Virus record (IMG/VR): IMGVR_UViG_3300034198_025142
Span: 1-36,065 of that record
Origin: a virus
DNA: 36,065 bases
Strand: one strand, 5' to 3'
This document shows, piece after piece, positions 1,773-36,065 of the stretch. The notes below the pieces were generated by a model. The model searched no databases and was not told where the DNA came from. It was given only the letters and a program-made list of their open reading frames with translations. Made by a program: the position numbers and the translations under genes. Numbering within the stretch: position 1 is the stretch's first letter; every line of letters begins with the position of its first letter.

Positions 1773-4700
1773 TTAATCTATTTGAAATCTAGATAAAGGA
1801 GGGAATCCCAATTCCTTCCTATCGTAGTAAATAGTTCTCAATAAGTAATCCTCAGGATTTACAACTTCAGGTTTTAGATCTCCTGCAAAAGCTTCTTTAT
1901 GATCTATAACCCTTATCATACCTTTGTGCTCGGTTTCATATATGTTTCCGTTAGCATCTTGTAGTTCACAATAGATCGTGTAAAATCCAGCTTTTAAGAA
2001 AGTCCATATAAAGTATGGACTTCTTCTTATTTTTACTATTGTTTCGCCAGTCTCTGTATCAATAAGAGTCCATATATGATTCTTTTTACCAGGTATTAAT
2101 GAATCTATAGGATTTATAAATATAGTGGTAGCTAAAGGAATTTCAAATTCTTTATCGTATAATTTTTCTTCTTTCCAAGACCAAGAATGAGACCCAAGCC
2201 AAGATTGCACACCTCCTATTTTTAATCCGCTCTGGAATCTTTGCTTAGGTATTTTACCAAGGAAAGCATCCAAAGATCCTCCTGGAGGTGATAGTACAAC
2301 ATAAGGAGAAAATTCTGATTCACCCTCAAAATATCCAGTTAAATAAATATTCTCCTCGTGGTCTAATACTAAATCAGCTCCTGAATCATTATTAAGACCT
2401 CCAGCAGTAACTATATCAACTAATAAACCTTCCTGATTAAACTTAGTTAAATATATGTCTGTACCTCCTCTAGATTCTATTTCCTCTGGAGAGAAATATG
2501 CAGGTGAGGTATAAGATCCTGTTATATAAACATTCTCCTCTGAATCACTTTCTATATCATAAGCAGTGTCTCCCGATTGACCTCCACACATTTTCATCCA
2601 CATTAATTTTCCAGTGGAAAGTAGTTTAAGTACAAATATATCTGTTGATCCAGGAAATGATGAGATTTTTTTACCTTCAATCTCCATAGTTCCATCAAAT
2701 GAACCAGTAACTAAAACATGTCCTTTTGGATCTATACATATAGAAGTAGATCCAAACGACGTAAGTGAATTGTCTGCAAAACTATCTGCCCATAGACATG
2801 AACCATCTCCAGTCGAGAATTTACCAACAAACATATCAGGATTTCCTACCCCATTTAGTGTTATAGGTCCAAGATCAATCTGTGTATTAAAAACTCCTGT
2901 TAAATATAAATACTCCTCTTTAAGTACTGCTAATTCGTATGCTTTTGAGTATGTTGTTGTGGTTAATTGTTTAGCCCATACAAAAGATAATGAAGGATCG
3001 ATCTTTGCAATAAAAGCGGAATCCTGACCTGTAGAGGATAAAGAATATGTACCTAAGGTAAGATTACCTTCAAATGCTCCACATATATAAATATTTTCAT
3101 ACTTATCAACTTTAATATCTCCAAGAAATTGGTCCGGTGTAATAGGTATATTAATTGTATTTAATAATGTACCGCCTGAGTTGTATTTGTTTATTTCTAT
3201 AAATCCTGTAAGATTATTATCACAAGCTACATAGATATTTCCGTTTGTATCTGTTATAACTGATCTAGCATAAATTGGTCCTTGTGGAGATGTTGAAGGT
3301 ACTGATGTAGCCCATTGTATAACTCCTCCCTTATTATATTTAGCAATGTAAACTCCTTGATCTAGACTATTTAGATAAATGTCCTGAGATCCTATATTAT
3401 TTACTTCACCCATAAATATGGTACCAGTAAAATCACCAATAGCTATGATATCACCTTCATTATCTACAGTAACTTTTACACCTTGATCCGGGTTACTATT
3501 TCCTAATGTTATAACCCATTCAAAATTGTCAAACAGATCCCTAGATTTTTTCTGAGCTATCCTTTCTATTTGTGAATTTTTCCAATATGGTTCTTTGTTT
3601 GCTTTACCGTTTATAATATCGCGTAGCGGAGCGTATAAGAAGACATCATCAATGTTTAAAGATGGAAACTGATCTTTAAGACGATCGATGCTATAACGCT
3701 GCCAAATAGGCTTGTACCAAGAATATCTATCGACATTAGGCATGATAGGTCTGGTGTAATCAGAATTTAAAGTGAGGTTATCATTAAAAGGACCAACTAT
3801 AAAACTAAATCCTAATTGTGATTCACCAATACCGGAATTGTAAATATTTTCTACAGAAGGTAAAGGTGTTGATGTATCGTGATAAACGAAGTCCCATCCA
3901 TTAGGTCCAGCAGACTTAGATGTTGCATGTATGTGCGGTATAACATAATCAAGTTTTCCTATCTCACCATCTTCAGTAAGGAATATTAAATTCTTTGGAT
4001 AGGTTATTTGTCCATTTTTAATTGTTTTCCAAGGAGCAGAAAGCATAGTTTTTCCGTGGAATACGTTACAAGGATTGATTAATGTAGTTCCATCATTCCT
4101 ATATAAAACATTAGTAAAGAAATATCCATCAAAGAAATACAATTCAGTGTCTCCAGGAGAAGCAGAAGGATCAATAGTAAACCAGATATTAGCATTTCCA
4201 GTCTCTACTATATTACCAAATATTCCTGAAGATATTTCTGGATTTGTAGATGAATTCCATACTGCCCATCTTATATGATCCCAATATGTTAATCCAGATG
4301 CAGTTCCAATCCATTTATGTTTTAATTTATCTATTTCTATAGAATAAACATCGTCGTCAGGAAGTCCTGAATTAGATGATGTGTAATTTTTAAATCCTAC
4401 CCCGTCAAATCTAGATAAACCAGCATCTGTTGCTATCCATAGATACCATCCATTAATACCATAATATTCTAATTTAAGATCTCTTATATTATCAGAAGGT
4501 ATATCAGAATTATTGGTTGTATAAAGTCTCCATGATTTAGCTGATGAATCATAAAATAAAAGTCCGTCAAAAGATGGAGAGGAATTACAGGTAAATGCTG
4601 CAAATATATCTCCTCTCTGCGGATTTATTTCTATAGATGTTATACTTGAAGCAGCTATTGGACTAACAGGATTACCTGCATTATCTACAAAATCACTAAC

Positions 4701-7700
4701 CGAATATGCAAAGCTTTGTGTAGGATCCTTCTCGTTTATTTTCACAAGAGGAGTTAAATTGTTTTCTATCCCTATCCATTTTACATCGTTTCGGTCTATC
4801 TTTATACAATTAGTAAGTATAGAAAGACCAGGCATCACACTATTAGAAGAATCATAAACAGTGTAATTAGCACCATCAAATCTAATAACATCCTCACCAG
4901 TAACCCAAATATCCCCATCTGCGTCCCAAGCTACCCCAGTAGGTTGGAAAAGAACAGGAGAATAAGTAGGTACTTTATAAAAAGTCGATGTTATATTCTT
5001 AGGTCCGGGATTAGTACTAAGATCCGGAGATATAGGATTGCTGTTTATATAGAAATTATTTGGAAGCTCTGAAAATCCTCTAACAGCATAATCAAATCTT
5101 TTTATATTATCGTCAATAGAATCATTCAATTGATCTGCAGCTTCGCTTAGATCCAAATAACTATTTCCTGGAGAATCTGTTTCTCCGAATACTACACCTA
5201 AAGAATCCTTAGTTACTCTAACTTTATCTCCATATTGAAGTGAATAAAGATCAAATCCCCCAAGCCAATCATTATGATAATCGTACATATCCCATGTATG
5301 TGCATAAGCTTTTTCAAATTGGAAATCCTCGAATGTGTCCCAAGAAAGACCTTTAGTTCCCCAGAATCTCATCTCCTTCTTAGGTAGAAAATTGAAATTA
5401 TATTCTAGGTATTCTTCCCTCTCGTTTATACCTCCAGAAAAAGTACCAGTTGTTATGCTGCTTAAAATAGATCCTGTAACTTGTACTGAAAGTATCTTAC
5501 CATTCCATAAATCTCCACTGTTATTAGGAGCTTGTAGTGTAAATTTCTTATATCCAGGAGTTGTTGAATCTATTAGATTTATAACTTTATATTTGGGAGT
5601 TAGTGGAGAAGAATTTATTGTACTATAGACTAAACTAGAAGTTGAATTTATATCCCCTTGAAAATTACAGTCAGCTATTAATAAAGAATCTGCAGTTATT
5701 TTAATATTACCCGATCCGTAAACGTATCCTCCTATTATAGCTGTAATAATTATCTCTGGTATTTCAAAGGCATTTAGTCCTGTTACTGTTATAGGATATT
5801 GTCCATAAGGAGATCCAGTAGAATCATATATCCATACAGTATCTCCAGAAGAATATCCATGAGGGGTATTTGTTGTTACGATAGCCAATGAATATCCAAA
5901 GCCATTATATGTACTAACGATATTGTTAATATCTACTTGATTAACTCCAATCTCAAAATCTATAGTTGCTTTAACTTCTGGTAATTTAGTTAATACCTCA
6001 CATTGTTGACCTTCATTAAAATTATTAGAATACTCCGGATAATTTTCTATCATATCAGAGATATTTAAAATCTTATTTGTATTCTCAACTGGGAAGATCC
6101 ACTGAGAAGGATAGCTTTCCCATTTTAGAGGAGCATTATCCCAATTATAAATCTCAGATTCTCTAAATCTAGTTATAGTATTTAATTCTATAGATCTTTT
6201 ATCAACTTTTAAAATTGATCTTTTTATACCAAGAGATATAGAATTTAGAGTATCCCAAACTCTACACTTAATATTATATTCACCAACATAAGGAACGAAA
6301 TGTACTAATGTTTCTAAATCAGGTAATCCTCCTCTTATCTGAAAGAAGTAAGGACTAATGTCATCGTCCTTGTATATAGTCCATTCTATCTCATAGAAAT
6401 CTAAATAAGGTATTCTATCCCACGAATAAAAACCATTAGATTGTACAAAATTTTCATAGTACTCAAATGTATAGCTACTAAATCCTAAATTTGTTGGTGT
6501 TACTTTCCAATTTGAATATTGACCTGATCCTCTTACAGACATCATCTGGATATAGAGATCTCCAGTAATAGTGTTATAATCACCAGAACTACAATATCCC
6601 AAAATAAGATTCCCTGGGGAATCTATGGACTCAACTCTAACAAATAAAACCTCAGGAAAAGATGTATCAAACCAATCATTACCTGGACCTATATTAATGG
6701 TTACGTTAGATGGGAACGATGTAGGTAATGTAAAATTGCTAGTACTATTAACTGTTTGAAAAGGAGTACCAGGATTGCTTGATGTTGTACTATTATAACT
6801 TGCTATTTGTAATGAAGTAGTAGTTACAGTTGTATCAAAGGAATTCCATGTTGCACTTACATCATCCCAAGGAAGTGTAAATGTGTTATTCTTAATAATT
6901 ACTGGGCATCCAGCAGGAAATACATATTCAGCACCATTTGAAAATAACTTATATCCTGGATAATCATAATCTCCATCTCCTAAAAATTTAGGCATGGTTC
7001 CGCTTTTTACATCATCATAAAAAGATTGAATCGCTGTTTCCCAAGAAGGAATAGTCGGTAACGGATACTCTTGAAAAAATGTATATGGATCTATAGTATT
7101 TCCATAATAACTTATACCCTCCTCTGTTCCATTTACAGCAGGATATAAAATTCCAGATTGATTTGGCTTAGTATAAAAAGGTCTAAGATCCTCAATGTAT
7201 CCATTTTGTGGAAAAACCGTAAAGTCTACTTCTATACCTCCTTTTATTTCACTTATGTCTACCTGATCTGTCCACCCCCTTGTTTTATAAATATTGAAAT
7301 ATATCCCCTCTCCAGTAATATCAATTATCCTAGCATTAAGAGGTAGGTAATCTCTTTTTAATCTTTCCTTTAGTCCAAAAAGTTTTATAAGTACTTCTTC
7401 TGGACTAAAAGCAAAAGTATCTTCGACTACAGGATATCCATATTGATCTTCATCCTGATCCTCTACTACCCTATTTATATCATAGAAAAGTCCGAATAGT
7501 GCAGTCTTCTTAAATGATTTAGAAGGAAATAATTGTTCAAATTGTTTCTTTAAACCAAAAGTACCATCCTTATTTTTTCCATATACCTCTACTTGTTTAA
7601 ATTTACCCTCATTTTCATCTTTTATTAAACTACTTATAAGCTCCAATCTATTCTGTCCTTCTATATTAGGCTTCTTTAATTGATTTAATATTTTTTGGTT

Positions 7701-8549
7701 CTGTTGTAGTGGGGTTAAAGTATCAGCATCATCTTTCTTTATGTTAAGCCAATACTCCTTAACTCTTAAATCATAATAACCGAAAAATTTTATAGCATTA
7801 AATAAAGATTTATAAGATCCTAGATAAGGAAATATACTCTCCCCTGTAAGTAATAATTCTTTTCTTTTCTTGTTGATTATTTCAAGATCTGGAAATTCTT
7901 CTTTTATATCTCCCTCCCTTACTATTAAGGCATCAGAAGCATTAAACTCTCTTCCGAAGTTTCCTAATAATACTGACAGTCTACTATCTTCACCTTCTAC
8001 CTCACCATGAAATCCAACTTTTAAAATAGTAACTGGATTATTTGGATCTGTATAATCCTCTAATATAAAAGATCTATCGTATATTCCTTCCAAATCAGAA
8101 TTAAGTGCTATATTAATCTGCATCGAAGAAGGATTAATATCGTTCGTAACAACAATACCGCTAGGTGAAGCTATTGTATCACCAGGAACAACCTCAGGAT
8201 AAAATTCTATATTGTTAGCCTTAACTAACACAGGAGAATCTAATTCGCCGTCTACTCCTAATTCATAGGTGTATATGATATTAGAAACATCAGTCTTACC
8301 ATCATAATTAGACTCCCATCTAGTTCTCCATACAGGAGTACCAGGGCTAACTCCATAAGAATGTGGAAATCCATATTTTAATTCAGCAGAAGTATTTAGG
8401 AATTTTTCTATTATGAAGATGTGTTGTACTTCAAATAGTTTTTCAGAAACTATAGGAAACAGAACCGATCCTTCCCAATAATTTCCATTCCATTTAAAAA
8501 CATATTGGTCTCCTTTTTTATCAAAGAATAAAAGATTTTGAAGAGTCAT
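1773..8549 (-). CDS. Giant baseplate wedge protein, gp7-like N-terminus with two beta-propellers (2258 aa)
   Basis: This is the largest gene in the window. It follows gp25- and gp6-like genes, the T4 position of wedge protein gp7. Around residues 215-275 it has the stretch EIINKKRKELLLTGESIFPY then a YGYYDLRVKEYW-like segment, which I associate with gp7-like wedge proteins of T4-like phages. A PKD/Ig-like segment (GEYNIKCRVWD) lies near 716-786. About residues 1190-1535 hold 6-7 Reg_prop-like repeats (IWVTG, KWIG, LWIATDAGLSRFDG, KWIGTASGL). About 1670-2100 hold seven SBBP-like blades, each ending in a version of 'ENIYLTGYFEG'. A second PKD-like domain (AGFYTIYCELQDANG) lies near 2180-2220. 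There is no signal peptide. T4 gp7 is about half this length, so the propellers are probably exposed additions for receptor or fibre contact. The gene starts with ATG one base after the upstream stop. Confidence 0.8.
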   Translation of the reverse strand: MTLQNLLFFDKKGDQYVFKWNGNYWEGSVLFPIVSEKLFEVQHIFIIEKFLNTSAELKYGFPHSYGVSPGTPVWRTRWESNYDGKTDVSNIIYTYELGVDGELDSPVLVKANNIEFYPEVVPGDTIASPSGIVVTNDINPSSMQINIALNSDLEGIYDRSFILEDYTDPNNPVTILKVGFHGEVEGEDSRLSVLLGNFGREFNASDALIVREGDIKEEFPDLEIINKKRKELLLTGESIFPYLGSYKSLFNAIKFFGYYDLRVKEYWLNIKKDDADTLTPLQQNQKILNQLKKPNIEGQNRLELISSLIKDENEGKFKQVEVYGKNKDGTFGLKKQFEQLFPSKSFKKTALFGLFYDINRVVEDQDEDQYGYPVVEDTFAFSPEEVLIKLFGLKERLKRDYLPLNARIIDITGEGIYFNIYKTRGWTDQVDISEIKGGIEVDFTVFPQNGYIEDLRPFYTKPNQSGILYPAVNGTEEGISYYGNTIDPYTFFQEYPLPTIPSWETAIQSFYDDVKSGTMPKFLGDGDYDYPGYKLFSNGAEYVFPAGCPVIIKNNTFTLPWDDVSATWNSFDTTVTTTSLQIASYNSTTSSNPGTPFQTVNSTSNFTLPTSFPSNVTINIGPGNDWFDTSFPEVLFVRVESIDSPGNLILGYCSSGDYNTITGDLYIQMMSVRGSGQYSNWKVTPTNLGFSSYTFEYYENFVQSNGFYSWDRIPYLDFYEIEWTIYKDDDISPYFFQIRGGLPDLETLVHFVPYVGEYNIKCRVWDTLNSISLGIKRSILKVDKRSIELNTITRFRESEIYNWDNAPLKWESYPSQWIFPVENTNKILNISDMIENYPEYSNNFNEGQQCEVLTKLPEVKATIDFEIGVNQVDINNIVSTYNGFGYSLAIVTTNTPHGYSSGDTVWIYDSTGSPYGQYPITVTGLNAFEIPEIIITAIIGGYVYGSGNIKITADSLLIADCNFQGDINSTSSLVYSTINSSPLTPKYKVINLIDSTTPGYKKFTLQAPNNSGDLWNGKILSVQVTGSILSSITTGTFSGGINEREEYLEYNFNFLPKKEMRFWGTKGLSWDTFEDFQFEKAYAHTWDMYDYHNDWLGGFDLYSLQYGDKVRVTKDSLGVVFGETDSPGNSYLDLSEAADQLNDSIDDNIKRFDYAVRGFSELPNNFYINSNPISPDLSTNPGPKNITSTFYKVPTYSPVLFQPTGVAWDADGDIWVTGEDVIRFDGANYTVYDSSNSVMPGLSILTNCIKIDRNDVKWIGIENNLTPLVKINEKDPTQSFAYSVSDFVDNAGNPVSPIAASSITSIEINPQRGDIFAAFTCNSSPSFDGLLFYDSSAKSWRLYTTNNSDIPSDNIRDLKLEYYGINGWYLWIATDAGLSRFDGVGFKNYTSSNSGLPDDDVYSIEIDKLKHKWIGTASGLTYWDHIRWAVWNSSTNPEISSGIFGNIVETGNANIWFTIDPSASPGDTELYFFDGYFFTNVLYRNDGTTLINPCNVFHGKTMLSAPWKTIKNGQITYPKNLIFLTEDGEIGKLDYVIPHIHATSKSAGPNGWDFVYHDTSTPLPSVENIYNSGIGESQLGFSFIVGPFNDNLTLNSDYTRPIMPNVDRYSWYKPIWQRYSIDRLKDQFPSLNIDDVFLYAPLRDIINGKANKEPYWKNSQIERIAQKKSRDLFDNFEWVITLGNSNPDQGVKVTVDNEGDIIAIGDFTGTIFMGEVNNIGSQDIYLNSLDQGVYIAKYNKGGVIQWATSVPSTSPQGPIYARSVITDTNGNIYVACDNNLTGFIEINKYNSGGTLLNTINIPITPDQFLGDIKVDKYENIYICGAFEGNLTLGTYSLSSTGQDSAFIAKIDPSLSFVWAKQLTTTTYSKAYELAVLKEEYLYLTGVFNTQIDLGPITLNGVGNPDMFVGKFSTGDGSCLWADSFADNSLTSFGSTSICIDPKGHVLVTGSFDGTMEIEGKKISSFPGSTDIFVLKLLSTGKLMWMKMCGGQSGDTAYDIESDSEENVYITGSYTSPAYFSPEEIESRGGTDIYLTKFNQEGLLVDIVTAGGLNNDSGADLVLDHEENIYLTGYFEGESEFSPYVVLSPPGGSLDAFLGKIPKQRFQSGLKIGGVQSWLGSHSWSWKEEKLYDKEFEIPLATTIFINPIDSLIPGKKNHIWTLIDTETGETIVKIRRSPYFIWTFLKAGFYTIYCELQDANGNIYETEHKGMIRVIDHKEAFAGDLKPEVVNPEDYLLRTIYYDRKELGFPPLSRFQID

Positions 8550-8797: not shown

Positions 8798-10495
8798 TTA
8801 ATTACCTGTTTTTAAAGAACTCTTTAATAATCCATTTACTTTTGCATTATATGTGTAAGGAACAATTGCTCTAATATCTATATTGATAGAGGAAAGTGTT
8901 TCCATTCCTGCTCCTAGATCATAGAATATACCATTCCTATCTTCCCATCCTCCTGATATAATTACTACGTCATCCTTACCCATTACTATGTCTCCAAATT
9001 CATCAAATCCTATTTCAGGAGAATTTGGATTTTGAGCTTTTGCTGCCTCATTTTCTTCTCCCACAAAATATAAAGATACCGAATCAACACCTTCTATTCC
9101 CTCTATAGCAGCTATTAAATCAGATCTAGGTATTTTATCTCTTCTTCTAATGTTAAGGAAATAATCACTAAGGGTATTTGTTATAGTTGTTTTTAGTGTA
9201 TCGGGATCGTTTCCTTCGAACATAGTTAAAGCTATATTTACCACGTACCTTTTTATAACTGGGTCTAATATCTTAACCTCTGTAGTAACTATTTTTTGTC
9301 CACTCTCGTCTAATAATTGATATATTCTATCCCTTTGTGGTTGAGTTAGCTTAAATCTTGAAACAGGAATATCGAAATAAGTCTCGTTGCTTTTTAGTGT
9401 TAACTGAATATCTGGAACGAGTATTAAATAGATAATATTATCATCATCAATATATTGATCATCAAATGTTGTAAAAGCTTCTATTATTGAAAACTGTCCA
9501 AATTTTTCAAAGAAAGTTATATAATTAGTTGGATTGGCTAAAACAAAACTTCTAGAAGTTTTTGGAGCTATCAATCTAGTTAAATCTACTGATTCTTGAT
9601 TCGCACCCATTTGAGGTGCAATTGTACAAGAAACTTGTAGAACTTCAGATAATGTAACATTATTTCCAAATAAATCAGTTCCGTCGGAGTCAAAAGCAAA
9701 TATTGCTTGTGAAGAATCATCAAGTATAAGATTTCCAGAAGTTCCAGAAGATTCCAAATATGTAACCTCTATTACTGATCCAGGAGCTGGTGGTAATCCA
9801 AAATCTCTATTACCAAAAAAGATATCTATACCAGATATAAGAGAACTTTTTACTAAGTACCCTAATCCATTTCTAGGAATATCGTATAATGAATCATATC
9901 TCTTCCATTCTACCCCATTAACCTTAACATAAACTTCAAAATTCTCTATACCAGAAGTACCTCTCGAAGATATATTAAAACTTTGTAAAAAATTTCCACC
10001 TCCGGTATACTGATTTACAGCAAGAGTACCTTCCATTATTGAACAAATTAATGATGAAGTTCCATCAAGATTTAGTCTTGTGTATTCCTGCGGGAATTTT
10101 AACAAATATGTTTTACCATTGTTTACACATTTTATCTGTGAATTTTTAGGTATAAGTACTGCACTTCCTCCTATAGATTCTATATTTTTTCCATTCCATC
10201 TGATAGAAACCTCTCCCTTCGCTGATATATTTCTAGTTGGATTGTGTCCTGCAAGAGTAGCTAAACCATATATGGAAGACTCACGAGTAGCAGTATTTAT
10301 ATTTAATTCAGTTATAGAATCCTCAATAAAGAATAATACAAACTGAGAAAGGTTATCTAATACAAATATTATTTGCCCCCATACAGACGCAACGGTAAAT
10401 AACTGATTGGACATTCCATATCTTGCCTGAATTAACTCAAAAGTTTGAGATATTAGATCGGATATTTTTGCTCTATTTTTTGATAATAAATCCAT
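8798..10495 (-). CDS. Baseplate wedge protein, gp6 / Baseplate_J-like (565 aa)
   Basis: It matches the gp6/J wedge theme. It has an N-terminal helical part (about 1-70), a region in which conserved small beta domains include the IPKNSQIKCVNNGKTYLL pattern (about 115-135), and a C-terminal part at about 415-480 with the J-like sequence DTLKTTITNTLSDYF followed by IPRSDLIAAIEGIEGVDSV. In T4, gp6 dimers form the inner ring of the baseplate that joins the wedges. It sits directly after the gp25-like gene, the conserved order in contractile-tail phages. Its length is a little under T4 gp6 (about 660 aa). The start is ATG after an A/T-only leader without a Shine-Dalgarno motif. No hydrophobic segments suggest membrane insertion. 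Confidence 0.8.
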   Translation of the reverse strand: MDLLSKNRAKISDLISQTFELIQARYGMSNQLFTVASVWGQIIFVLDNLSQFVLFFIEDSITELNINTATRESSIYGLATLAGHNPTRNISAKGEVSIRWNGKNIESIGGSAVLIPKNSQIKCVNNGKTYLLKFPQEYTRLNLDGTSSLICSIMEGTLAVNQYTGGGNFLQSFNISSRGTSGIENFEVYVKVNGVEWKRYDSLYDIPRNGLGYLVKSSLISGIDIFFGNRDFGLPPAPGSVIEVTYLESSGTSGNLILDDSSQAIFAFDSDGTDLFGNNVTLSEVLQVSCTIAPQMGANQESVDLTRLIAPKTSRSFVLANPTNYITFFEKFGQFSIIEAFTTFDDQYIDDDNIIYLILVPDIQLTLKSNETYFDIPVSRFKLTQPQRDRIYQLLDESGQKIVTTEVKILDPVIKRYVVNIALTMFEGNDPDTLKTTITNTLSDYFLNIRRRDKIPRSDLIAAIEGIEGVDSVSLYFVGEENEAAKAQNPNSPEIGFDEFGDIVMGKDDVVIISGGWEDRNGIFYDLGAGMETLSSINIDIRAIVPYTYNAKVNGLLKSSLKTGN

Positions 10496-10497
10496 TT

Positions 10498-10869
10498 TTA
10501 TAATATTTTAATTCCTAATATGGGGTTTCCTTTTATGGCAAAATCTATAACACAAGCATCTCTTGTATCGCCTCTAATAAATCCCACATCAAATTCAACA
10601 TTAAATGTAGAATATGCCAAGGGGACATAAGTAAATAAATGTAAATCTATAGCTCTAGTTAAAGTGTTCTGATCTACCTCAAGGTCAAATATAAGACCTT
10701 CTAGATCTATACCAAAATATGGATCCCCTAGAACCTCTCCAGGGCTTGTCATCATACAATTTTTAATCATACCAATAAGTATTTCTACTTGGTCATCGGT
10801 ATGTAAAAGTCCCTCTTTGTATCTTGGATCATCAGGATTCCTTGGATAAATTTCAGAATATCTTGCCAT
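10498..10869 (-). CDS. Baseplate wedge protein, gp25-like (123 aa)
   Basis: The size and pattern fit the gp25/GpW family: a short N-terminus, a helix (HTDDQVEILIGMIKNCMMT), then SPGEVLGDPYFGIDLEGLIFD and a central helix (DQNTLTRAIDLHLFTYVPL), finishing in beta strands (AIKGNPILGIKIL). In T4, gp25 with gp6 and gp53 forms the wedge core that triggers sheath contraction. The usual EPR-like motif is not visible as such; GDPYFG takes that position. It ends two bases before the gp6-like start. Upstream it is separated from the 259-aa gene by the homing endonuclease, which appears to have been inserted at this junction. Confidence 0.8.
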   Translation of the reverse strand: MARYSEIYPRNPDDPRYKEGLLHTDDQVEILIGMIKNCMMTSPGEVLGDPYFGIDLEGLIFDLEVDQNTLTRAIDLHLFTYVPLAYSTFNVEFDVGFIRGDTRDACVIDFAIKGNPILGIKIL

Positions 10870-10903: not shown

Positions 10904-12109
10904 TTATTTTATAGTCTTTTCACCTTTATTGTTATAGACCCAAAATTCAAAAGAAATTCCTAGACCAAGACATGCTTGTTTTTTCATTTTATTAAGAGAG
11001 ATGTTTGTTTCGTATGTGTATTTAGATTTAACTTCTATAACCTTACTTTCAGAAAGAATATAAATATCAGGATAATACCTCCTTTTCTTTTCCTCAGAAT
11101 CCAGATACAATATTCTTCCAGTATATTTTTCAATTTCCTTATTGGATACAATTATATCTTCTTCCATGTATCCGGCGTCAAGTAAGTCCTTTAGAGCAAA
11201 TCCCTCGTATCCCTGTATTTTTTCTACTCTACCAGAAGGAAAAATAAATATTTTTTTCTTGTATGATGTTTCTAAAGACTTCTCGAAAGATTCAGTATAA
11301 TGAAAAGCATGTTCCACTCCATACTTCCATAACATTGTTTTTTTAAATTTTTTCTTAAAATCGTGACTTTGTACATACCAATCAGTACCTCTTTTTCTTC
11401 TATTAGTTTCTTTAGATTTATTTCTTATCTCCTCTGAACACATACTAGAATTTCCTCCGTATTTTAAATTATTAGTTATCCTAGATTTTTCTTTTACCTC
11501 TGGATTATCCAAAGAGTGTTCAAATCCATATTTTTCTTTGTTTGTTTTTCTTTTCTTGTCTTGTGTTTCTTTTAATTTAGTCGGATGCCCTCCATATTTT
11601 TCTGAAAATGTATTCTTTACTTTATTTTTAAATTCTTCGGTCTCAGTATAAAAATCTACCCCGTACTTTTTCCTGTTATTATTCCTAATTTTTTCTAAAG
11701 CTCCTGGAACTTCCATAGGATTAGTTGTACCGTTATTTTTCATCATAGATCTATCAGTCTTCTCCTTGTTATATTTTTTAACACATAAATTATCCATACA
11801 CGTCGCATAATAATTAACAGGGTTTGTTGGTTTTAATCCATATCGGTCTATTGAAAACTTTGGTTTTTTTGAAAACATTCTAGGCGAGTCACAATAAGGG
11901 CATCTCTCAATTTCATAAAAATTAAACCACACATGATAAAATCTCTGCTGGATAGGAATTTTATCAGATTCGTAAATTAAGTCAAGAAATGATGTAAGCG
12001 ATTTTAGTTGAGATATAGAATCTTGATCCTTAGGAAGATCCCTCATTATAGTTCCGAAAGCTTTACCGGTCTTAGATCTCCAGTCTTCAATTTTTTGTAA
12101 TATACACAT
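10904..12109 (-). CDS. Free-standing homing endonuclease: zinc finger, KYG repeats, PD-(D/E)XK nuclease (401 aa)
   Basis: Three parts are visible. Cys70, Cys73, Cys104 and Cys109 form a likely zinc finger. Residues about 148-285 carry six repeats about 23 residues apart, each with KYG or a variant (148, 171, 193, 216, 239 as KRG, 262), very Lys/Asn rich and probably DNA-binding. The C-terminus has PDIYI at 347-351 and IEVKSK at 358-363, the two halves of a PD-(D/E)XK nuclease active site. The architecture fits phage mobile endonucleases that nick or cut intergenic sites and spread by recombination. It has no role in tail assembly, although it lies between a structural gene and the gp25-like gene. 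An 8-bp hairpin overlaps its ATG and may limit translation. It could also be a Vsr-like repair nuclease, but the repeats argue for homing. Confidence 0.8.
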   Translation of the reverse strand: MCILQKIEDWRSKTGKAFGTIMRDLPKDQDSISQLKSLTSFLDLIYESDKIPIQQRFYHVWFNFYEIERCPYCDSPRMFSKKPKFSIDRYGLKPTNPVNYYATCMDNLCVKKYNKEKTDRSMMKNNGTTNPMEVPGALEKIRNNNRKKYGVDFYTETEEFKNKVKNTFSEKYGGHPTKLKETQDKKRKTNKEKYGFEHSLDNPEVKEKSRITNNLKYGGNSSMCSEEIRNKSKETNRRKRGTDWYVQSHDFKKKFKKTMLWKYGVEHAFHYTESFEKSLETSYKKKIFIFPSGRVEKIQGYEGFALKDLLDAGYMEEDIIVSNKEIEKYTGRILYLDSEEKKRRYYPDIYILSESKVIEVKSKYTYETNISLNKMKKQACLGLGISFEFWVYNNKGEKTIK

Positions 12110-20652: not shown

Positions 20653-21567
20653 TTACACTCCTATTATTCCGCTAGTACCGGAAGTACCACTAGTTCCAGA
20701 TGTTCCAGCTGTACCAGCAGTTCCTGTATTAGGTATACCTATAGGAGAATTTGCGTCAAGAGGTACTGCTGGAAATTCTGGTGCATTCTCCCTAGTAACT
20801 CTTACCGTTTGACTTGTAGCTAATTGTTCAAAGCTAGATGCTAGGGTGGAATTAACCCCGGGGGTTGCCGGCATTTTACTATCTATTGATATAGCTAATT
20901 TTTTTAGAAAATCCCATAGTGGCTCTGCGCAAACTGCAGAAAACAAAGGAGAGTGTCCAAGATTAGTAGTTTTACCATCCATCCAAACTTCCTCTGAACT
21001 GTGCTTTATTCTTGTTACTGCAGTGTTCTCTATTTCCTGATCTGCATACTTAGTTATTTTTCCTCCTTTTAATTCTATCGAAGCTGTATCATCCGCATGA
21101 GTTATTAGTATAGAGTTATCATTTCTTATAATAATCTTAGATTCCTTTAAATCTATTACTAGTCCTTTCTCTACTGTATAATACATTTTAAGCCTCTCTA
21201 TACCGTCGTATATTAAAGAATGAGCACCATCATAACTATTCCTGATCTCATCTATTAAGTCAGGTGATAACTCCTGTACAGCTTTATATTCAGGACTATA
21301 GTAGTTGCCATTATTAAATTGGACATGTACAACAGATCCAAGTTTAGGAACAGATATTCTTCCAGATCCTCCTCCTAGACCGTAGCTCTGCTCTAATCTT
21401 TGGTAAGACCAAGGAAGCTCAGTATCAGCCAAATCATCAAAAATCCCAAAAATTCTAACCTTGGCTCTTCCCTTGAATTCAGGATCCTTATTGTCTACTA
21501 CAACACCAAGATAGTGTGATATCTCCGTATTAGGCTTTTCTAATTTATTTCTGTCTATTAATCCCAT
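20653..21567 (-). CDS. Baseplate spike protein, gp5-like OB fold without lysozyme (304 aa)
   Basis: Residues about 19-56 (YLGVVVDNKDPEFKGRAKVR, then IFGIFDD and LPWSYQ) match the OB-fold of T4 gp5 and VgrG-type spike proteins. A beta-rich middle at about 130-205 (KGLVIDLKESKIIIRNDNSI) resembles the start of a spike prism. T4 gp5 has a lysozyme domain in the middle; none is seen here, and the protein is roughly half the length of T4 gp5. The C-terminus ends in a GTAGTAGTSGTSGTSGTSG tail. The spike would sit at the tail tip under the hub and pierce the envelope. The next gene starts one base after its stop, and it follows the repeat-tailed structural gene, as expected for a hub cluster. Confidence 0.8.
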   Translation of the reverse strand: MGLIDRNKLEKPNTEISHYLGVVVDNKDPEFKGRAKVRIFGIFDDLADTELPWSYQRLEQSYGLGGGSGRISVPKLGSVVHVQFNNGNYYSPEYKAVQELSPDLIDEIRNSYDGAHSLIYDGIERLKMYYTVEKGLVIDLKESKIIIRNDNSILITHADDTASIELKGGKITKYADQEIENTAVTRIKHSSEEVWMDGKTTNLGHSPLFSAVCAEPLWDFLKKLAISIDSKMPATPGVNSTLASSFEQLATSQTVRVTRENAPEFPAVPLDANSPIGIPNTGTAGTAGTSGTSGTSGTSGIIGV

Positions 21568-30134: not shown

Positions 30135-30755
30135 TTAAACAGTTTTATAAGCTGGATATAATTCTTCCAATTGCTCAGGACTTATTAAATCTAATATTTC
30201 TTGTCTATTTTCATTAAAAAATTCCCATGTTGTTGCGTCACTAGGAAAAACATCAAGGCTCTCGCTTATGTCCCTAGTTAATATACCAACTCCCCAATCA
30301 GTATCCACAGTAACTAACTTAAGATCGTTTCTATATAGCCTAAGCTTTATTAACGAAAGATATACAGTCCCGTTCCACTCACCGTTGGCAGGAGCAGAAA
30401 AAACAGGGGACTCCGCCGCGTGATATTTAGTAGGCGGATTACAATCATGAAGAACTATAGTACCTCCCTCTGATAGATGTCTCAAAGAATTTTCAATATC
30501 CTTATCGACTTGAAAATCTAAATGCAAGCCATCAATAAAAATTATATCGAATTTCTGATCAGTATCTATACTATCAAAAAAAGAATCGGAAGTCATTATA
30601 TGTGTGGTGTGGTCTGAAACTGGACTAGGATCTACGCCTATTTTATTTTCGCAACATATCTCCTTGAAACATTTTCCGTCCCTTACCCCAATTTCTAGAT
30701 AATTCTTATATCCCTTGTTTTCTATTATTGTATTAATTATCTCCCACCTTTTCAT
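30135..30755 (-). CDS. Class I SAM-dependent methyltransferase, Methyltransf_24 type (206 aa)
   Basis: The SAM-binding motif I is NYLEIGVRDGKCF (about 18-30), followed by motif II GVDPS (about 40-44), IIFIDGLH (71-78) and GGTIVLHDCNPP (97-108), the Methyltransf_24 pattern. Such enzymes often act on sugars, lipids or small carbohydrates. The protein is normal in length and has no membrane segment. It lies 10 bases after the GT2 glycosyltransferase gene, so the two may act in sequence, for example methylating a sugar added by the transferase. A role in modifying phage DNA is less likely, as no DNA recognition domain is seen. Confidence 0.75.
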   Translation of the reverse strand: MKRWEIINTIIENKGYKNYLEIGVRDGKCFKEICCENKIGVDPSPVSDHTTHIMTSDSFFDSIDTDQKFDIIFIDGLHLDFQVDKDIENSLRHLSEGGTIVLHDCNPPTKYHAAESPVFSAPANGEWNGTVYLSLIKLRLYRNDLKLVTVDTDWGVGILTRDISESLDVFPSDATTWEFFNENRQEILDLISPEQLEELYPAYKTV

Positions 30756-30765
30756 ATCGATATTT

Positions 30766-31476
30766 TTATAAATTCCATTTTTCTTTAAAAATAGGATAAG
30801 ATCCGCTAGTCATTTTATACATTAGATCGTAATCCTTAACCACTCTTTCTGTTGTCTTTCCTATGTTATTATCGTGATGCTCTACTATAGATTTTGTAAC
30901 CAGAGCATGTCTCACTCCATTAGCGATTATCTCCATAGCATAATCATTATCACAAAACCAATGACTAAATCTTTCGTCAAGATCCCCTATTATATTATAG
31001 ATTTCTCTCTTATGAACTATACACCATCCAGATATTTGCTTTCTTATATCATACCCCTCTATCAACCCAGTATCTTGATTTATTCCATAAAGAGGTTGTG
31101 TCATTGGACATAAAGGCGAAAAGGACATGAAATTTGGTAACTGTTCTGAAGCTTCCAATATATTGGTAAACCAATTTCTTTTAAATTCCAGATCATTATT
31201 ACATAAAGCAACCCATTCGGAATTTCCTTTTTTTCTACCAAAGTTTAGAAATTTGTGATACCCATAGGGAAGTGGTGCAGAATAAGTTTTTACATTTTCT
31301 GCTAGATGCTCCCAAGTTATTCCTGGTTCTGATTCTACAACTATAATATTAAAAAGATCGTCAGCTTTATTTTCTGAAGCTATTAAAGAAAGTATACAAT
31401 TAGTTGTTAAGGTTCTGCAATAATCATCCTTAGCATAACTTATTATAACAACATCGAGTAATTTAGATTGCATCAT
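30766..31476 (-). CDS. GT2-family glycosyltransferase (236 aa)
   Basis: The fold pattern fits a GT-A, family 2 enzyme: LLDVVIISYAKDDYCRTLTT at the start, CNNDLEF near 92-98 (a DxD-like NND), SGWCIVHKREIYNIIGDLDE then FCDNDYAMEI (149-183), which is the typical acceptor-binding and catalytic part. It would move a sugar from an activated nucleotide to an acceptor. Activated donors may come from the sugar genes upstream, such as the GDP-linked 3,6-dideoxy sugar or a CMP-linked one. It overlaps the kdsA end by 14 bases, so it is coupled with the Kdo genes. The acceptor is unknown: host envelope polysaccharide, a virion protein or phage DNA base are options. Confidence 0.8.
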   Translation of the reverse strand: MMQSKLLDVVIISYAKDDYCRTLTTNCILSLIASENKADDLFNIIVVESEPGITWEHLAENVKTYSAPLPYGYHKFLNFGRKKGNSEWVALCNNDLEFKRNWFTNILEASEQLPNFMSFSPLCPMTQPLYGINQDTGLIEGYDIRKQISGWCIVHKREIYNIIGDLDERFSHWFCDNDYAMEIIANGVRHALVTKSIVEHHDNNIGKTTERVVKDYDLMYKMTSGSYPIFKEKWNL

Positions 31477-32263
31477 ATATAGCTCTTGATTTTTTTATAG
31501 CATATTCAAATTTACTAAGCTCCAGCATATTTTCAGAATCTGAAGGAGAAAGTTCAGGATACGGATGGGTTTCTATAAATAATCCATCAGCATTCATAAC
31601 GGATGCAAATTTAATCATATCCTCTATCATATCCCCTCTGCCTTCTGTTTTACCAGAAGACATATTTGGTCTTTGTAAGCTATGAGTGCAGTCCATTATT
31701 ATCTTTGATCTTTCGCAGGATTTTTTAAGTCTGGTTATAGACGTTACGTCTACTATCAGATCATTGTACCCAAAGCTATTTCCCCTTTCCCCTATTATTA
31801 AATTTTTACCTCCAGCTTTATAAAATTTGTCCTCGATAAATCCTGCAGATTCTGGTGAGATGAACTGCCCTTTCTTAATAAGAGTAGGTTTTCCTGTTCT
31901 AGCGCACGTTTCTATAAGATCCGTTTGTCTACAAAGAAAAGCTGGAACCTGTAAAATATCAACGACAGAAGCTACTTTTTCAACCTGAGCAACTTCATGT
32001 ACATCTGTAATAACATCGATTTCAAGCCTCTCTTTAATATTTTTAAGTATCTCTAATCCTTTATCTATACCTATTCCTCTAAAGCCATCGTGAGATGTTC
32101 TATTTGCTTTATCAAAGCTAGCTTTAAATACTGGATAAAAATTATATAGCTTAGCGCACCTTTTTACTTCGATAGCAATCTCATAACATGTATCCCAGGA
32201 TTGAATAACACAAGGGCCAGCTATTAATATTTTAGCTCCAGATTTTTCTTCAGTATTATTCAT
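31463..32263 (-). CDS. kdsA: 3-deoxy-8-phosphooctulonate synthase (KdsA), metal-type
   Basis: Condenses phosphoenolpyruvate and arabinose-5-phosphate to Kdo-8-phosphate, in the Kdo branch of LPS synthesis. The 266 residues match KdsA through FKASFDKANRTS (47-58), VPAFLCRQTDL (106-116), KKGQFISPES (130-139), GERGNSFGYNDLI (158-170) and MDCTHSLQRP (190-199). IAGPCVIQS (14-22) has Cys18 where non-metal KdsA of E. coli has Asn. With His194, Glu231 and Asp242 this gives the Cys/His/Glu/Asp metal set of Aquifex-like enzymes. The start overlaps the previous stop (TAATG). The neighbouring A5P isomerase supplies its substrate. KdsC and KdsB are not seen nearby. Confidence 0.92.
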   Translation of the reverse strand: MNNTEEKSGAKILIAGPCVIQSWDTCYEIAIEVKRCAKLYNFYPVFKASFDKANRTSHDGFRGIGIDKGLEILKNIKERLEIDVITDVHEVAQVEKVASVVDILQVPAFLCRQTDLIETCARTGKPTLIKKGQFISPESAGFIEDKFYKAGGKNLIIGERGNSFGYNDLIVDVTSITRLKKSCERSKIIMDCTHSLQRPNMSSGKTEGRGDMIEDMIKFASVMNADGLFIETHPYPELSPSDSENMLELSKFEYAIKKSRAIYDAI

Positions 32264-32709
32264 TATTTATTTTTATTAATCTTTGATAATTCATCAAGAT
32301 ACACCAAGTTTCTTAGATTTGTAGTGGAAAAGTTATGATTCCTCTTGTTATAAATTATTTCTATATTTCTAATTTTGCAGATATCTTTAGCAGTAAAGTT
32401 ATTACCCATGTATTCTTCACCTATAATTCTTACATCCAAATCGAGAGACATAAACATCATTTCTAATTCTTTCTCAGTAGAATACGGTATTATTTTATCT
32501 ACGTACTTAACAGCTTCTAATTGTATATAGCGTTCTACTAAAGATTGTACGGGTTTATTTTTTTCTGGCCTATCAATAGACGGATCAACTTGTAAAGCAC
32601 ATATTAAATAATTGCAATATTTTTTACATTCTTGTAGCATGATTATATGCCCAGTGTGTAGAAGGTCGAATGTTGAGCATGTAATTCCTGTTACTATCTT
32701 ATGTGACAT
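32263..32709 (-). CDS. TagD-like cytidylyltransferase (148 aa)
   Basis: A small nucleotidyltransferase with the signature HTGH at 18-21 and a C-terminal STT (128-130), as in glycerol-3-phosphate cytidylyltransferase (TagD, RTxxxSTT) and in the C-terminal half of ADP-heptose enzyme HldE. The family joins CTP or ATP to a phosphorylated substrate. Between the A5P isomerase and KdsA, the natural thought is a CMP-sugar step, but true CMP-Kdo synthetase (KdsB) is a different fold, so the substrate is open. It has no membrane segment. It begins 15 bases after the isomerase stop and ends by sharing bases with the kdsA start. Confidence 0.75.
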   Translation of the reverse strand: MSHKIVTGITCSTFDLLHTGHIIMLQECKKYCNYLICALQVDPSIDRPEKNKPVQSLVERYIQLEAVKYVDKIIPYSTEKELEMMFMSLDLDVRIIGEEYMGNNFTAKDICKIRNIEIIYNKRNHNFSTTNLRNLVYLDELSKINKNK

Positions 32710-32723
32710 AAAAAATCTAATCT

Positions 32724-33308
32724 TTATTCTATACCTCTAGCTTTTAAATTTAAATATCCTCCATGATGTAATTTAGAATATTTTTCTTTTGTAAATCTGT
32801 TTCTTTCCATCAGTCCTACAACTATAAGATCAGATATAACAGACATGCAAGTCGTTGATGTGGTTGGAGTTAATCCTAACGGACATATTTCTTCAACTTT
32901 ACCGAATTCTATATAATCTGCGCATCTGGTACTTATGTTAGAATTACTTTCACCAACAACAGCAAATATCAGATTATTGTAATTTAGTGCATGGATTAGT
33001 TCTATAAGTTCTAGAATCTCTTTGGTCTTACCGGAATTACTGAAAACTATAACTATATCACCAGGCATTATTACACCAAGATCGCCGTGTTGTGCCTCTG
33101 CTGGATGTAGAAAAAATGATGGAGTTCCTGTAGATGAAAGAGTTGTAGAAAAAGTATGTGCAATTTGACCGGCTTTTCCCATACCCGAAGTTATTATTCT
33201 TCCTGTAGTTAGGTGCCAATGTATTTGTCCAATTATATCAGATATTTTTTCAGTAGGAAGAGCTCTAAGATATCCTATCTCTTTCTCTATAAGTTCCTTA
33301 TAATTCAT
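32724..33308 (-). CDS. kdsD: Arabinose-5-phosphate isomerase, SIS domain only (KdsD/KpsF-like)
   Basis: Interconverts ribulose-5-phosphate and arabinose-5-phosphate, the first step to Kdo. Conserved points are SGMGKAG (41-47), HPAEAQHGDLG (68-78), FSNSGKTKE (89-97), CPLGLTPTTSTT (142-153) and HHGGYLNLK (181-189). At 194 aa it lacks the two CBS domains of the roughly 328-aa E. coli KdsD, so it is a SIS-only form, known also in some Bacteroidota and in phages. The TAATG overlap with gmd and closeness to kdsA place it in a shared sugar operon. Phosphoheptose isomerase GmhA is a relative but lacks the CPLGLTPTTSTT pattern. Confidence 0.9.
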   Translation of the reverse strand: MNYKELIEKEIGYLRALPTEKISDIIGQIHWHLTTGRIITSGMGKAGQIAHTFSTTLSSTGTPSFFLHPAEAQHGDLGVIMPGDIVIVFSNSGKTKEILELIELIHALNYNNLIFAVVGESNSNISTRCADYIEFGKVEEICPLGLTPTTSTTCMSVISDLIVVGLMERNRFTKEKYSKLHHGGYLNLKARGIE

Positions 33309-34315
33309 TATTTCTCCATTTGATGATCAATCATTTCTGCTATTATATTGGAGAGACTCAGGTTTGGTTTCCAACCTAATATATTTTTAGCCTTATCTGA
33401 TGATCCAATTAGAAGATCAACCTCAGAAGGTCTAAAATATTTAGGATCAACTTTAACTATAACGTTTCCTGTCTTTAAGTCGATTGCAGTTTCATTAACG
33501 CCCTCTCCTTCCCATCTGATAGAGATGCCTAGAATTTCACATGCAATTTCTACTATTTGTCTAATAGTATAAGTTACCCCTGTTGATAAAACGAAGTCCT
33601 CCGGAGTTTCTTGTTGTAGCATTCTCCACATACCCTCAACATACTCTTTAGCATGTCCGATGTCTCTTTTAGCATTTAAGTTACCGAGAGTTAAAGGATC
33701 TTTACGTCCTTTATAAATTTCTACCAATGCGTCTACGATCTTTTTCTCAACGAAATTTTCGCCTCTTCTAGGAGACGTGTGATTGAAAAGAATTCCATTA
33801 CAAGCAAAGACATTATATGCTTCCCTATAGTTTTTTATTATCCAAAACCCGTAAAGCTTTGCTACTCCGTAAGGACTCCTAGGATAGAATGGAGTATTTT
33901 CTGTTTGAGGTATTTCTTGAACCTTACCATAAAGTTCAGATGTAGATGCCTGGTATAATTTAGTAGAAGGTGAATGACTTCTAATAGCTTCCAATACATT
34001 TAATGTACCTATCGCATCAACCTGTCCTGTGTAATATGGAATTTCAAAAGAAATCTTAACATGGCTTTGAGCTGCAAGATTGTAAAATTCTTCCGGCTGT
34101 ATAGTAGATATAAGATTACTAATAGATACTGGATCTGTAACATCAGCATAGTGCCAATGGAAATTTTCATGATTTCTTATGTGATCTATTCTCCATGTAT
34201 TAAAGGAAGAAGATCTTCTAATCGTACCATGTACTTCGTAACCCTTCTCTAATAAAAGTTCGGCAAGATAGCTTCCGTCTTGTCCGTTAACTCCCGTTAT
34301 TATAGCTTTTCTCAT
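33308..34315 (-). CDS. gmd: GDP-mannose 4,6-dehydratase
   Basis: Makes GDP-4-keto-6-deoxy-D-mannose from GDP-mannose with NADP as bound cofactor, the branch point to fucose, perosamine and colitose. The 335-residue extended SDR enzyme has GVNGQDG (8-14), a GTIRRSSSFNTWRIDHI segment (about 30-46), STSELYG and the YGVAK active site (Tyr-x-x-x-Lys), plus LFNHTSPRRGENFVEKKI, all typical of GMD. The start codon overlaps the end of the sugar dehydratase gene by ATGA. No GDP-fucose synthase is seen, so the product is likely passed on to the adjacent dehydratase. Cyanobacterial and other T4-like phages are known to carry gmd-like genes. Confidence 0.93.
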   Translation of the reverse strand: MRKAIITGVNGQDGSYLAELLLEKGYEVHGTIRRSSSFNTWRIDHIRNHENFHWHYADVTDPVSISNLISTIQPEEFYNLAAQSHVKISFEIPYYTGQVDAIGTLNVLEAIRSHSPSTKLYQASTSELYGKVQEIPQTENTPFYPRSPYGVAKLYGFWIIKNYREAYNVFACNGILFNHTSPRRGENFVEKKIVDALVEIYKGRKDPLTLGNLNAKRDIGHAKEYVEGMWRMLQQETPEDFVLSTGVTYTIRQIVEIACEILGISIRWEGEGVNETAIDLKTGNVIVKVDPKYFRPSEVDLLIGSSDKAKNILGWKPNLSLSNIIAEMIDHQMEK

Positions 34316-35481
34316 TTTAAATTATTTTTTCCAGAATTAACCAAAGATGCAATAAACTCAACCTGCTCTAAGGATAAATCCTGGTGGTTAGGTAGATAGA
34401 ATCCTTTCTCGTGAATTATATCTGAATTACCAGTTCCGTATTTTTTATTAATCTCCGTTGCAAAAGGTTGCTTAGCCATAGATCCTGCAATCAGAGGTCT
34501 AACTTCTATGTTATGTTCCTTCATCTTAGCAATAATAGAATCTCTCTCGGAATGAACTACAGGATAAGCAAAGTTTGAAACAAAATCTCCTTCTCTCTGA
34601 CTAACATCCAAATAGTTTTCTTTTATAAGCTCAGAATATTTGAGGAAGTTTCTATTTCTAACCGAAGAGAAAGGCTCTATTTTTTCTATCTGATTTATTC
34701 CCAAGAATGCTTGTAGATCAGTAGATCTAAGATTTAGTCCAGGAAAATAAAAAGAATACATGCTAGAAAAAGAATCAATTCCGTATTTCTCTCTATATTC
34801 TTTTTTTAGATCCTCACTCCAATCCCTATCCCATCCATGATTACGAATAGAAACTAAAAGATCGTGAAAATCACTATTGTTTGTAGTAATCATCCCTCCT
34901 TCTATTGTGCTTACATGATGACCGTAATAAAAAGAAAAGAATGACATAAGTCCAAAAGTTCCTAGGTAATTACCTTTATATTTTGATCCTAAGCTCTCGC
35001 AAACATCTTCCAAAAGGATAACGTTGTATTTCTTACAAAGATCCGTTACACGATCCATATCAGGCACTAATCCTAATACAGAAACTAATATACAAGCCTC
35101 TGGATTTTCTTCTATAAATATTCTTTCTAATTTGTCCAGATCTAATGATAAATCATTCAAATTACAGTCGCATAATATAGTTTCTAATCCAAGAACCATA
35201 GGACTGCTTAAATCCGTTGCCCAAGAAACTGAAGGAACCACAACTTTCTTTATGTCTTTTTTTATCTTAAGTGCAAGAAGAGATAAGAGAATAGCTGAGG
35301 ATCCAGAATTAATAAAACAGCTTCTTAGATCTTCGCCAAGAAAATTAGAGAAGTCATCTTGAAATTTTACTGTTAATGGTCCTTTTGTTAATTGTGGTAT
35401 ATCATCCTGCGATATCCACGTCACTAGTTTTTCTATATCACTTTTTGATATTGTGTCAGATACTAATTTTATATTTTTCAT
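34312..35481 (-). CDS. colD: GDP-4-keto-6-deoxymannose 3-dehydratase, ColD-like PLP enzyme
   Basis: A member of the DegT/DnrJ/EryC1 family of PLP sugar enzymes, 389 aa. At FFSFYYGHHVSTIEGGMITT (181-200) His188 replaces the usual catalytic Lys (motif K-x-x-x-x-x-EGG). This matches ColD, which has His at 188 and removes the 3-hydroxyl of GDP-4-keto-6-deoxymannose, with glutamate restoring the cofactor. Other typical segments are NHGWDRDW, LNLRSTDLQAFLGINQI and GFYLPNHQDLS. The E1 (RfbH/AscC) dehydratases also have His but are longer and bind an Fe-S cluster. The gene overlaps gmd by 4 bases and the methyltransferase by 4. ColC, needed to complete colitose, is not seen in this window. Confidence 0.85.
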   Translation of the reverse strand: MKNIKLVSDTISKSDIEKLVTWISQDDIPQLTKGPLTVKFQDDFSNFLGEDLRSCFINSGSSAILLSLLALKIKKDIKKVVVPSVSWATDLSSPMVLGLETILCDCNLNDLSLDLDKLERIFIEENPEACILVSVLGLVPDMDRVTDLCKKYNVILLEDVCESLGSKYKGNYLGTFGLMSFFSFYYGHHVSTIEGGMITTNNSDFHDLLVSIRNHGWDRDWSEDLKKEYREKYGIDSFSSMYSFYFPGLNLRSTDLQAFLGINQIEKIEPFSSVRNRNFLKYSELIKENYLDVSQREGDFVSNFAYPVVHSERDSIIAKMKEHNIEVRPLIAGSMAKQPFATEINKKYGTGNSDIIHEKGFYLPNHQDLSLEQVEFIASLVNSGKNNLK

Positions 35482-36065
35482 TCCTTTTCTAGTAATATTC
35501 CATAGTCAATATAATTGTTAGTTAATGACATTTTCCATCCTGGTAAAGCATATTTAACCAAATCATACCAATTTTCGTGATTTCTTACTCCCTCAACCAT
35601 TATTATATATTTAGTAGCTACCTCCCCCATATTCCTCAGCATTTTAACAGCTTTCTCTGAATTTAAGTGCATAACAACGGCTTGTGAGTAAACGAGATCA
35701 ACTTTAGGTAAGTCAGATACATCTCCAGTTAGATCCCTAACTGATACATTTTTTGGAAAATCCATGCCTTCAGGGATAAAACTTCTACCAAATTCTATTT
35801 GTGTTTCTAGATAGTCTGCACCAGAAACATCAATGTCGGGGCATAGTGTCATTATATTTCTAAGATGGTAGCATGCTCCGCACCCAAATTCAAAAACACT
35901 TTGAGGTTTTATTTTATAAATAAGGGAGTATATTTCTTTCCAGTTACTAACTAGATTGTCATGAAAAACTGGACTGTTGTTAATTATTTCGTAGTTTTTT
36001 ACAAAAAAATCAAAACCCTCGTTTTTAACCATTCCTATTAATTGATCGGAATATTCTGGAGTGTA
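35478..36065 (-). CDS. Class I SAM-dependent methyltransferase (5' end may be outside window)
   Basis: SAM motif I is SVFEFGCGACYHL (counting from the ATG at 36032, about residues 45-57). It is followed by SGADYLETQIEF and a post-I acidic residue, then DLVYSQAVVMHL and a helix KAVKMLRNMGEVATKYIIMV. These fit a small-molecule or sugar methyltransferase. The ATG at 36032 gives 184 residues, but the 11 codons up to the window edge are all sense (YTPEYSDQLIG) and in the same frame, so the real start may lie further right. It overlaps the sugar dehydratase start by 4 bases, so it belongs to the sugar operon. Confidence 0.75.
   Translation of the reverse strand, partial: YTPEYSDQLIGMVKNEGFDFFVKNYEIINNSPVFHDNLVSNWKEIYSLIYKIKPQSVFEFGCGACYHLRNIMTLCPDIDVSGADYLETQIEFGRSFIPEGMDFPKNVSVRDLTGDVSDLPKVDLVYSQAVVMHLNSEKAVKMLRNMGEVATKYIIMVEGVRNHENWYDLVKYALPGWKMSLTNNYIDYGILLEKE

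Follow-up and report, generated by a model that had tools for sequence, protein, structure and literature searches.

The gene at positions 1773–8549 of IMG/VR virus record IMGVR_UViG_3300034198_025142, a 36,065-nucleotide stretch of lake phage DNA (hereafter the window), raises the question of what two beta-propellers of different kinds are doing on a protein that resembles a baseplate wedge subunit. A preliminary description, made from the sequence alone, had read this gene as encoding a 2258-residue gp7-like wedge protein with two propellers. The open reading frame (ORF) itself is real: it runs on the minus strand from an ATG at 8549 to a stop at 1773 (2258 codons), and its length (about 2250–2266 amino acids (aa)) is retained across 36 complete homologues. 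In what follows, L-numbers (L001, L015 and so on) denote the contigs and sequences compared.

Two propellers of different families

Both propellers are visible in an AlphaFold2 model of aa 1100–2258 built from 21 sequences, structure modelling having been proposed in the preliminary description; they appear as two propeller-like blocks with repeated strand blades and a predicted local distance difference test (pLDDT) score of mostly 70–94. The first, described beforehand as a Reg_prop-like propeller at about 1190–1535, was found at 1187–1544. A profile of five sequences matches BT4663 (4a2l; 5.6e-21) and BT3049 (3v9f; 1.3e-12), and Reg_prop sensors are the top PDB matches to the propeller model in Foldseek, an alignment that spans both propellers and therefore says little about blade number; the figure of about seven blades was obtained by eye. 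Single-sequence Pfam searches of this propeller stayed below cut-off (Reg_prop 0.03, with the best stretch inside propeller 2, and NHL 0.5 at 1202–1217). The BT4663 and BT3049 Reg_prop sensors and PorZ of Bacteroidota share their fold and sequence family with propeller 1, but they are cellular periplasmic or surface proteins and contain no wedge fusion.

The second propeller, expected to be SBBP-like and seven-bladed at about 1670–2100, lies at 1676–2100, and its seven blades are legible from the sequence. It exceeds the cut-off for Pfam SBBP (PF06739; E = 4.4e-9, 36.6 bits versus 20.5), matches CylK by sequence (E = 5e-12) and aligns with the CylK structure at a VIA-align Z of 40.4 (root mean squared deviation 2.5 Å over 373 residues). 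CylK and SBBP repeat proteins have the same fold and sequence family as propeller 2; they differ in that CylK is an enzyme and that the cellular SBBP relatives found here are without the wedge core. Since CylK is by far the best structural match and the closest solved relative, propeller 2 might itself be an enzyme acting on surface polysaccharide. We regard this as very improbable, given that identity to CylK is 20–23%, that CylK is a Friedel–Crafts alkylating enzyme and that no conserved catalytic site was identified. The matches to BT4663 and BT3049, SBBP and CylK, together with the model, place the repeats far beyond chance and in two different families. The cellular relatives of propeller 2 (22–33% identity) are mostly from Bacteroidota and Ignavibacteria, and relatives of these folds in general come mainly from the same groups, in keeping with the earlier remark that both repeat types are typical of Bacteroidota.

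Repeats similar to propeller 2 were also seen in structural proteins of the cyanophages Sf-CH11 and S-PM2 (L306:8785-13080 and L307:8797-11973), in Sf-CH11 together with lectin-type domains; no wedge family was matched in these proteins. The Sf-CH11 ‘baseplate wedge subunit’ was rejected as a precedent, as it consists of structural-protein and lectin families and the wedge core was absent in family scans.

Where the preliminary description spoke of PKD-like domains, one PKD/Ig-like domain is predicted, at the C-terminus. The last ~150 residues form a beta-sandwich at moderate confidence in the AlphaFold2 model. Of the test families PF00801 and PF18911, the PKD match of the window protein at this position scores 0.019, under the Pfam cut-off, and the relative L158 matches PKD_4 at 9.4e-5 (22.8 bits versus a cut-off of 27). 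A profile of the C-terminal domain matches L054, L112, L114, L116, L121, L139, L158 and others.

A wedge-type core and the clade that carries the propellers

The conserved core (aa 170–456), which holds a helix-helix-strand motif (KRKELLL..GSYKSLFNAIKFFGYYDLRVKEYW), recurs in viral contigs in several hundred stretches, of which a single scan confirmed 401, and is also present in Lak and other huge phages and in cultured Flavobacterium, Chryseobacterium and Tenacibaculum phages. All 13 members tested fall into phrog_28177, which PHROGs annotates as function unknown. Tail_P2_I (PF09684, P2 gpI) is recognised at the core, inside the family ORF, in seven members of the family, of which four exceed the curated cut-off; the window's own clade has no direct match and is connected to these members via family homology. 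Of the 185 family members with enough flank, 181 have a gp6-like gene upstream, a count that includes repeated copies of the same contigs. Because of the Tail_P2_I signal at the relatives' core and the gp6-like gene upstream, the protein is labelled gpI/gp7-type, P2 gpI, T4 gp7 and TssG being held to be equivalents (PMC6300606). Its likeness to these three lies in its place after gp25- and gp6-like genes, in the relatives' Tail_P2_I signal and in the helix-helix-strand motif. The difference from T4 gp7 is that the core of the window protein is not alignable by profile and that two propellers and several beta domains are added after it.

Two results weigh against this assignment. Core profiles compared by hhalign with T4 gp6, gp7 and gp8 and with a T4 gp7 family profile gave nothing, and no gp7 chain is among the 50 PDB matches listed by Foldseek for the model of the N-terminal half (N-half model), which are weak beta-domain matches to a model with low pLDDT in the core. 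Such a lack of sequence or fold matches to T4 gp7, like the PHROGs annotation, would also suit an unrelated structural protein that adjoins the wedge genes by chance; with Tail_P2_I over cut-off at the core of relatives and the gene order so widely kept, that explanation is improbable, and identification of the protein as a gpI/gp7-type wedge subunit is supported. A Pfam search with the core returned a meaningful match in none of the 13 members, and the only hits of a PDB search with the core profile, to selenide water dikinase (E = 0.03), were taken as chance. The core profile from 13 distant members was too variable for the contig scan, and P2 gpI relatives in viral contigs were near-identical and of no use as a profile.

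The gp7-like N-terminus of the preliminary description thus survives as a gpI/gp7-type wedge part, but the motif is not at the extreme N-terminus: in the N-half model, in which the wedge part is poorly predicted (pLDDT mostly 32–62), a beta-sandwich (about 1–185) precedes it and other beta domains follow. The beta-rich domains at aa 457–860 are partly common to relatives without propellers. The region at aa 861–1186 is found in the propeller-bearing clade, with the linker weakly present in L121 and L139.

All propeller bearers belong to one clade (support 100/99), for which one change of state is needed. In fully readable relatives outside it, these propellers are missing and the core leads on to the same C-terminal domain: LR756500 (999 aa), L112, L114, L116, L121, L139, L158, L161 and L162, and also L167-L169, L171, L173, L175, L178, L180 and L183, relatives interrupted by contig ends being left out of the scoring. 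Pfam scans of five relatives found no propellers, and an isolated relative, Flavobacterium phage MaF61, is propeller-free. L134, a divergent sister of 2510 aa, has kept both, propeller 1 being only partly recognised by profile. The comparison indicates that the two-propeller module was gained in one phage clade, between the wedge part and a C-terminal domain that is old. In L185:1956-11262 and L187:7099-16405 the gene is split into adjacent genes of 1725 aa (the wedge part) and 1366 aa, the second ORF beginning ~34 bases after the first; the second genes, identical in the two contigs, contain Reg_prop-like repeats, the connector and the C-terminal domain. As this lineage is nested in the tree, the split looks later.

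Two further observations concern the distribution of such proteins. The same wedge-propeller architecture was seen in contig L309, which had been binned as a Bacillota genome and is probably mis-binned phage DNA. In L061 (LR756502, a 642 kb phage), propeller-looking repeats at aa about 870–1210 lie ahead of the wedge core; neither a Pfam propeller nor a PDB sequence match was found for them, and they are possibly an independent propeller gain.

Layout of the gene and its neighbourhood

The propeller gene follows the gp25-like and gp6/gpJ-like genes and closes the tail/baseplate run of the window (Table 1). A gp25-like homologue adjoins the gp6-like gene in most relatives examined. L001, which has an identical copy of the propeller gene, continues with structural-looking genes of 306, ~727, ~1169 and >861 aa. 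Contraction of the tail is suggested by the gp25, gp6 and hub genes only, since related contigs yielded no match to the sheath families PF04984 and PF22671. A first-probe search of the window for DUF11 gave nothing.

Table 1. Domains of the wedge-propeller protein and genes around it, in window coordinates
Feature	Residues	Position	Strand	Basis
Wedge protein gene with two propellers, gpI/gp7-type	2258 aa	1773..8549	minus	ORF and 36 full-length homologues
N-terminal beta-sandwich arm	1-169 (sandwich to about 185)	8043..8549	minus	AlphaFold2, pLDDT mostly 67-91
Conserved wedge core (predicted)	170-456	7182..8042	minus	phrog_28177 3e-23; relatives' Tail_P2_I; dN/dS 0.08
Beta-rich domains, last Ig-like (about 719-785)	457-860	5970..7181	minus	N-half model
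Further beta domain and linker	861-1186	4992..5969	minus	Models
Propeller 1, Reg_prop type, about seven blades	1187-1544	3918..4991	minus	4a2l profile match, model, Foldseek
Connector between propellers	1545-1675	3525..3917	minus	Conserved in clade, L134 and L185 split gene
Propeller 2, SBBP type, seven blades	1676-2100	2250..3524	minus	SBBP, CylK, blades listed
C-terminal PKD/Ig-like domain and tail	2110-2258	1776..2222	minus	C-terminal profile matches in propeller-free relatives
gp6/gpJ-like baseplate wedge subunit, immediately upstream of propeller gene		8798..10495	minus	phrog_219 4.5e-28
gp25-like wedge protein		10498..10869	minus	Weak match, phrog_261 0.0068
Hub-type protein in tail/baseplate gene run		20653-21567		phrog_430 1.9e-13
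PhoH-like gene, other side of propeller gene		1090-1761	plus	

Upstream of the wedge genes, at 10904-12109, lies a homing endonuclease gene (phrog_3339 1.5e-21) that is present in L001, L015, L016, L033 and L048 and absent or a remnant in other relatives; this patchy presence makes it look mobile. Elsewhere in the window, positions 30135-36065 hold a run of sugar-metabolism genes, identified by sequence reading alone, for glycosyltransferase-, KdsA-, nucleotidyltransferase-, sugar isomerase-, GDP-mannose dehydratase-, aminotransferase- and methyltransferase-like proteins.

Variation of the module and its possible role

The clade is mostly conservative, with a median ratio of nonsynonymous to synonymous divergence (dN/dS) of 0.08 in the core and about 0.15 in both propellers, the latter no higher than in stretches 457–700 and 861–1110. 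One exception is the pair L015 and L035, whose DNA is 98–100% identical over aa 1–750, in the part after aa ~2170 and in the flanks next to the gene, but 69–93% identical between aa ~750 and ~2170 (69–89% at aa ~750–2100). Against L035 and L044 (the latter the same as L035 in the propeller gene), the synonymous divergence (dS) of L015 is 0.03 in the N-terminal part, 1.20 in propeller 1, 0.95 in propeller 2 and 0.09 at the C-terminus. For part of the L035 propeller 1, the nearest sequence is that of L019. These DNA comparisons indicate that the stretch has been replaced, provided that the L015 assembly is not chimeric. A second exception is the group of L020, L034, L049 and L022, with differences of 16% in the N-terminal part, 44% in propeller 1, 49% in propeller 2 and 21% at the C-terminus, so that divergence of the propellers is roughly threefold that of the wedge part; because synonymous sites are saturated in most pairs, faster change and old exchange are indistinguishable here. 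The comparison across related phages proposed in the preliminary description accordingly shows propellers that vary or are replaced beside a conserved wedge part in L015/L035/L044 and the L020 group, the remainder of the clade being conserved in the propellers.

We give an even chance to the reading that the propellers form an exchangeable recognition module at the periphery of a gpI/gp7-type wedge, with a role at the host surface. The conserved core would build the wedge with its gp6-like neighbour; the two-propeller module would most likely occupy the baseplate's outer rim, probably in six copies, and would touch the host surface, for example a glycan or an envelope protein, as an exchangeable recognition part. 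The position in the virion, the copy number and a partner on the host rather than a phage protein are what we infer, the rim placement by analogy with the gp7-like part of Alg12 and a wedge variant of phage K8. On the AlgoCIS baseplate this part of Alg12 lies exposed at the side and interacts with tail fibres, and it has been described as an evolutionary re-engineering hotspot (PMC8894135); the K8 baseplate wedge variant can bind host oligosaccharide (PMC9887876). Alg12 is thus similar as a wedge component with an exposed and evolutionarily re-engineered gp7-like part; it differs in that gp6- and gp7-like parts are fused and in its interaction with fibres, and a propeller is not mentioned in the paper text (PMC8894135).

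The propellers could instead serve to dock the phage's own tail fibres or proteins of the baseplate periphery, without receptor contact, and their presence in all complete clade members except the split-gene lineage, under purifying selection and with large structural-looking genes just downstream, would agree with this. However, the 10 kb downstream are 90–100% identical between L015 and L035, so that a nearby partner was not exchanged together with the module, and faster divergence in one subgroup is not expected of a fixed internal interface. A partner outside the phage is favoured over a docked neighbour, and host-surface recognition is ranked first, because the module was replaced without comparable change downstream; docking comes second, as a possible though clearly less probable reading.

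Third, and unlikely, is a plain structural role, with the propellers acting as spacers or stabilisers that make the baseplate rim larger and bind nothing specifically. Relatives do have other beta-rich domains, or almost nothing, at this place (proteins of 853–1807 aa), but both propellers are kept in the clade, and variation in propeller 2 is concentrated in the loops of its top face, suggesting a binding surface. These loops, assigned to classes by hand, are more variable than those of the bottom face (1.17 versus 0.75 bits, p = 9e-5), an asymmetry that fits a binding face and is partly expected of any propeller.

Several points weigh against host-surface recognition. Conservation of short bottom turns is common to most propellers, which makes the loop asymmetry weak evidence. 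In most of the clade the propellers are under clear purifying selection, with identity moderately below that of the wedge part, and so differ from the usual hypervariable receptor-binding protein. The replacement comes from a single pair, and a chimeric assembly of L015 retains some probability because its version has no second copy, whereas L035 and L044 agree; the replaced stretch (aa 750–2100) is also wider than the propellers. A more far-reaching scheme, in which both propellers are the main receptor sensor, ligand binding triggers the wedge and baseplate without a fibre and the module is exchanged as a host-specificity cassette, we consider doubtful.

Propellers on baseplates are known. 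The C-terminal propeller of phiKZ gp131 (PDB 4GBF) is seven-bladed and lies at the baseplate periphery of a myophage, with a proposed role; no gpI/gp7 wedge fusion is described for it, the comparison being by published description (PMC4901313). The receptor-binding protein of Staphylococcus phage phi11 likewise has a propeller on the baseplate, with proposed sugar binding, but this is five-bladed and part of a trimeric receptor-binding protein, not a wedge subunit (PMC4901313). Of the suggestion that the window protein represents a new way to display folds on a baseplate, what holds is the placing of propellers on a wedge subunit, not their presence on baseplates, given phiKZ gp131 and the phi11 protein. 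In the literature searched, which consisted largely of papers available without subscription, two different propellers on a wedge subunit of gpI/gp7 type are unreported. A propeller-like domain has also been attributed to T4 gp7; if this is so, the novelty would be lower still.

The finding suggests an identity for phrog_28177, a family that reaches Lak and other huge phages. It also places recognisable, possibly ligand-binding folds on a class of protein usually regarded as scaffold, in phages with relatives that infect Bacteroidota, and the L015/L035 pair, the split-gene lineage and the propeller-free relatives provide ready comparisons for the function of this wedge arm.

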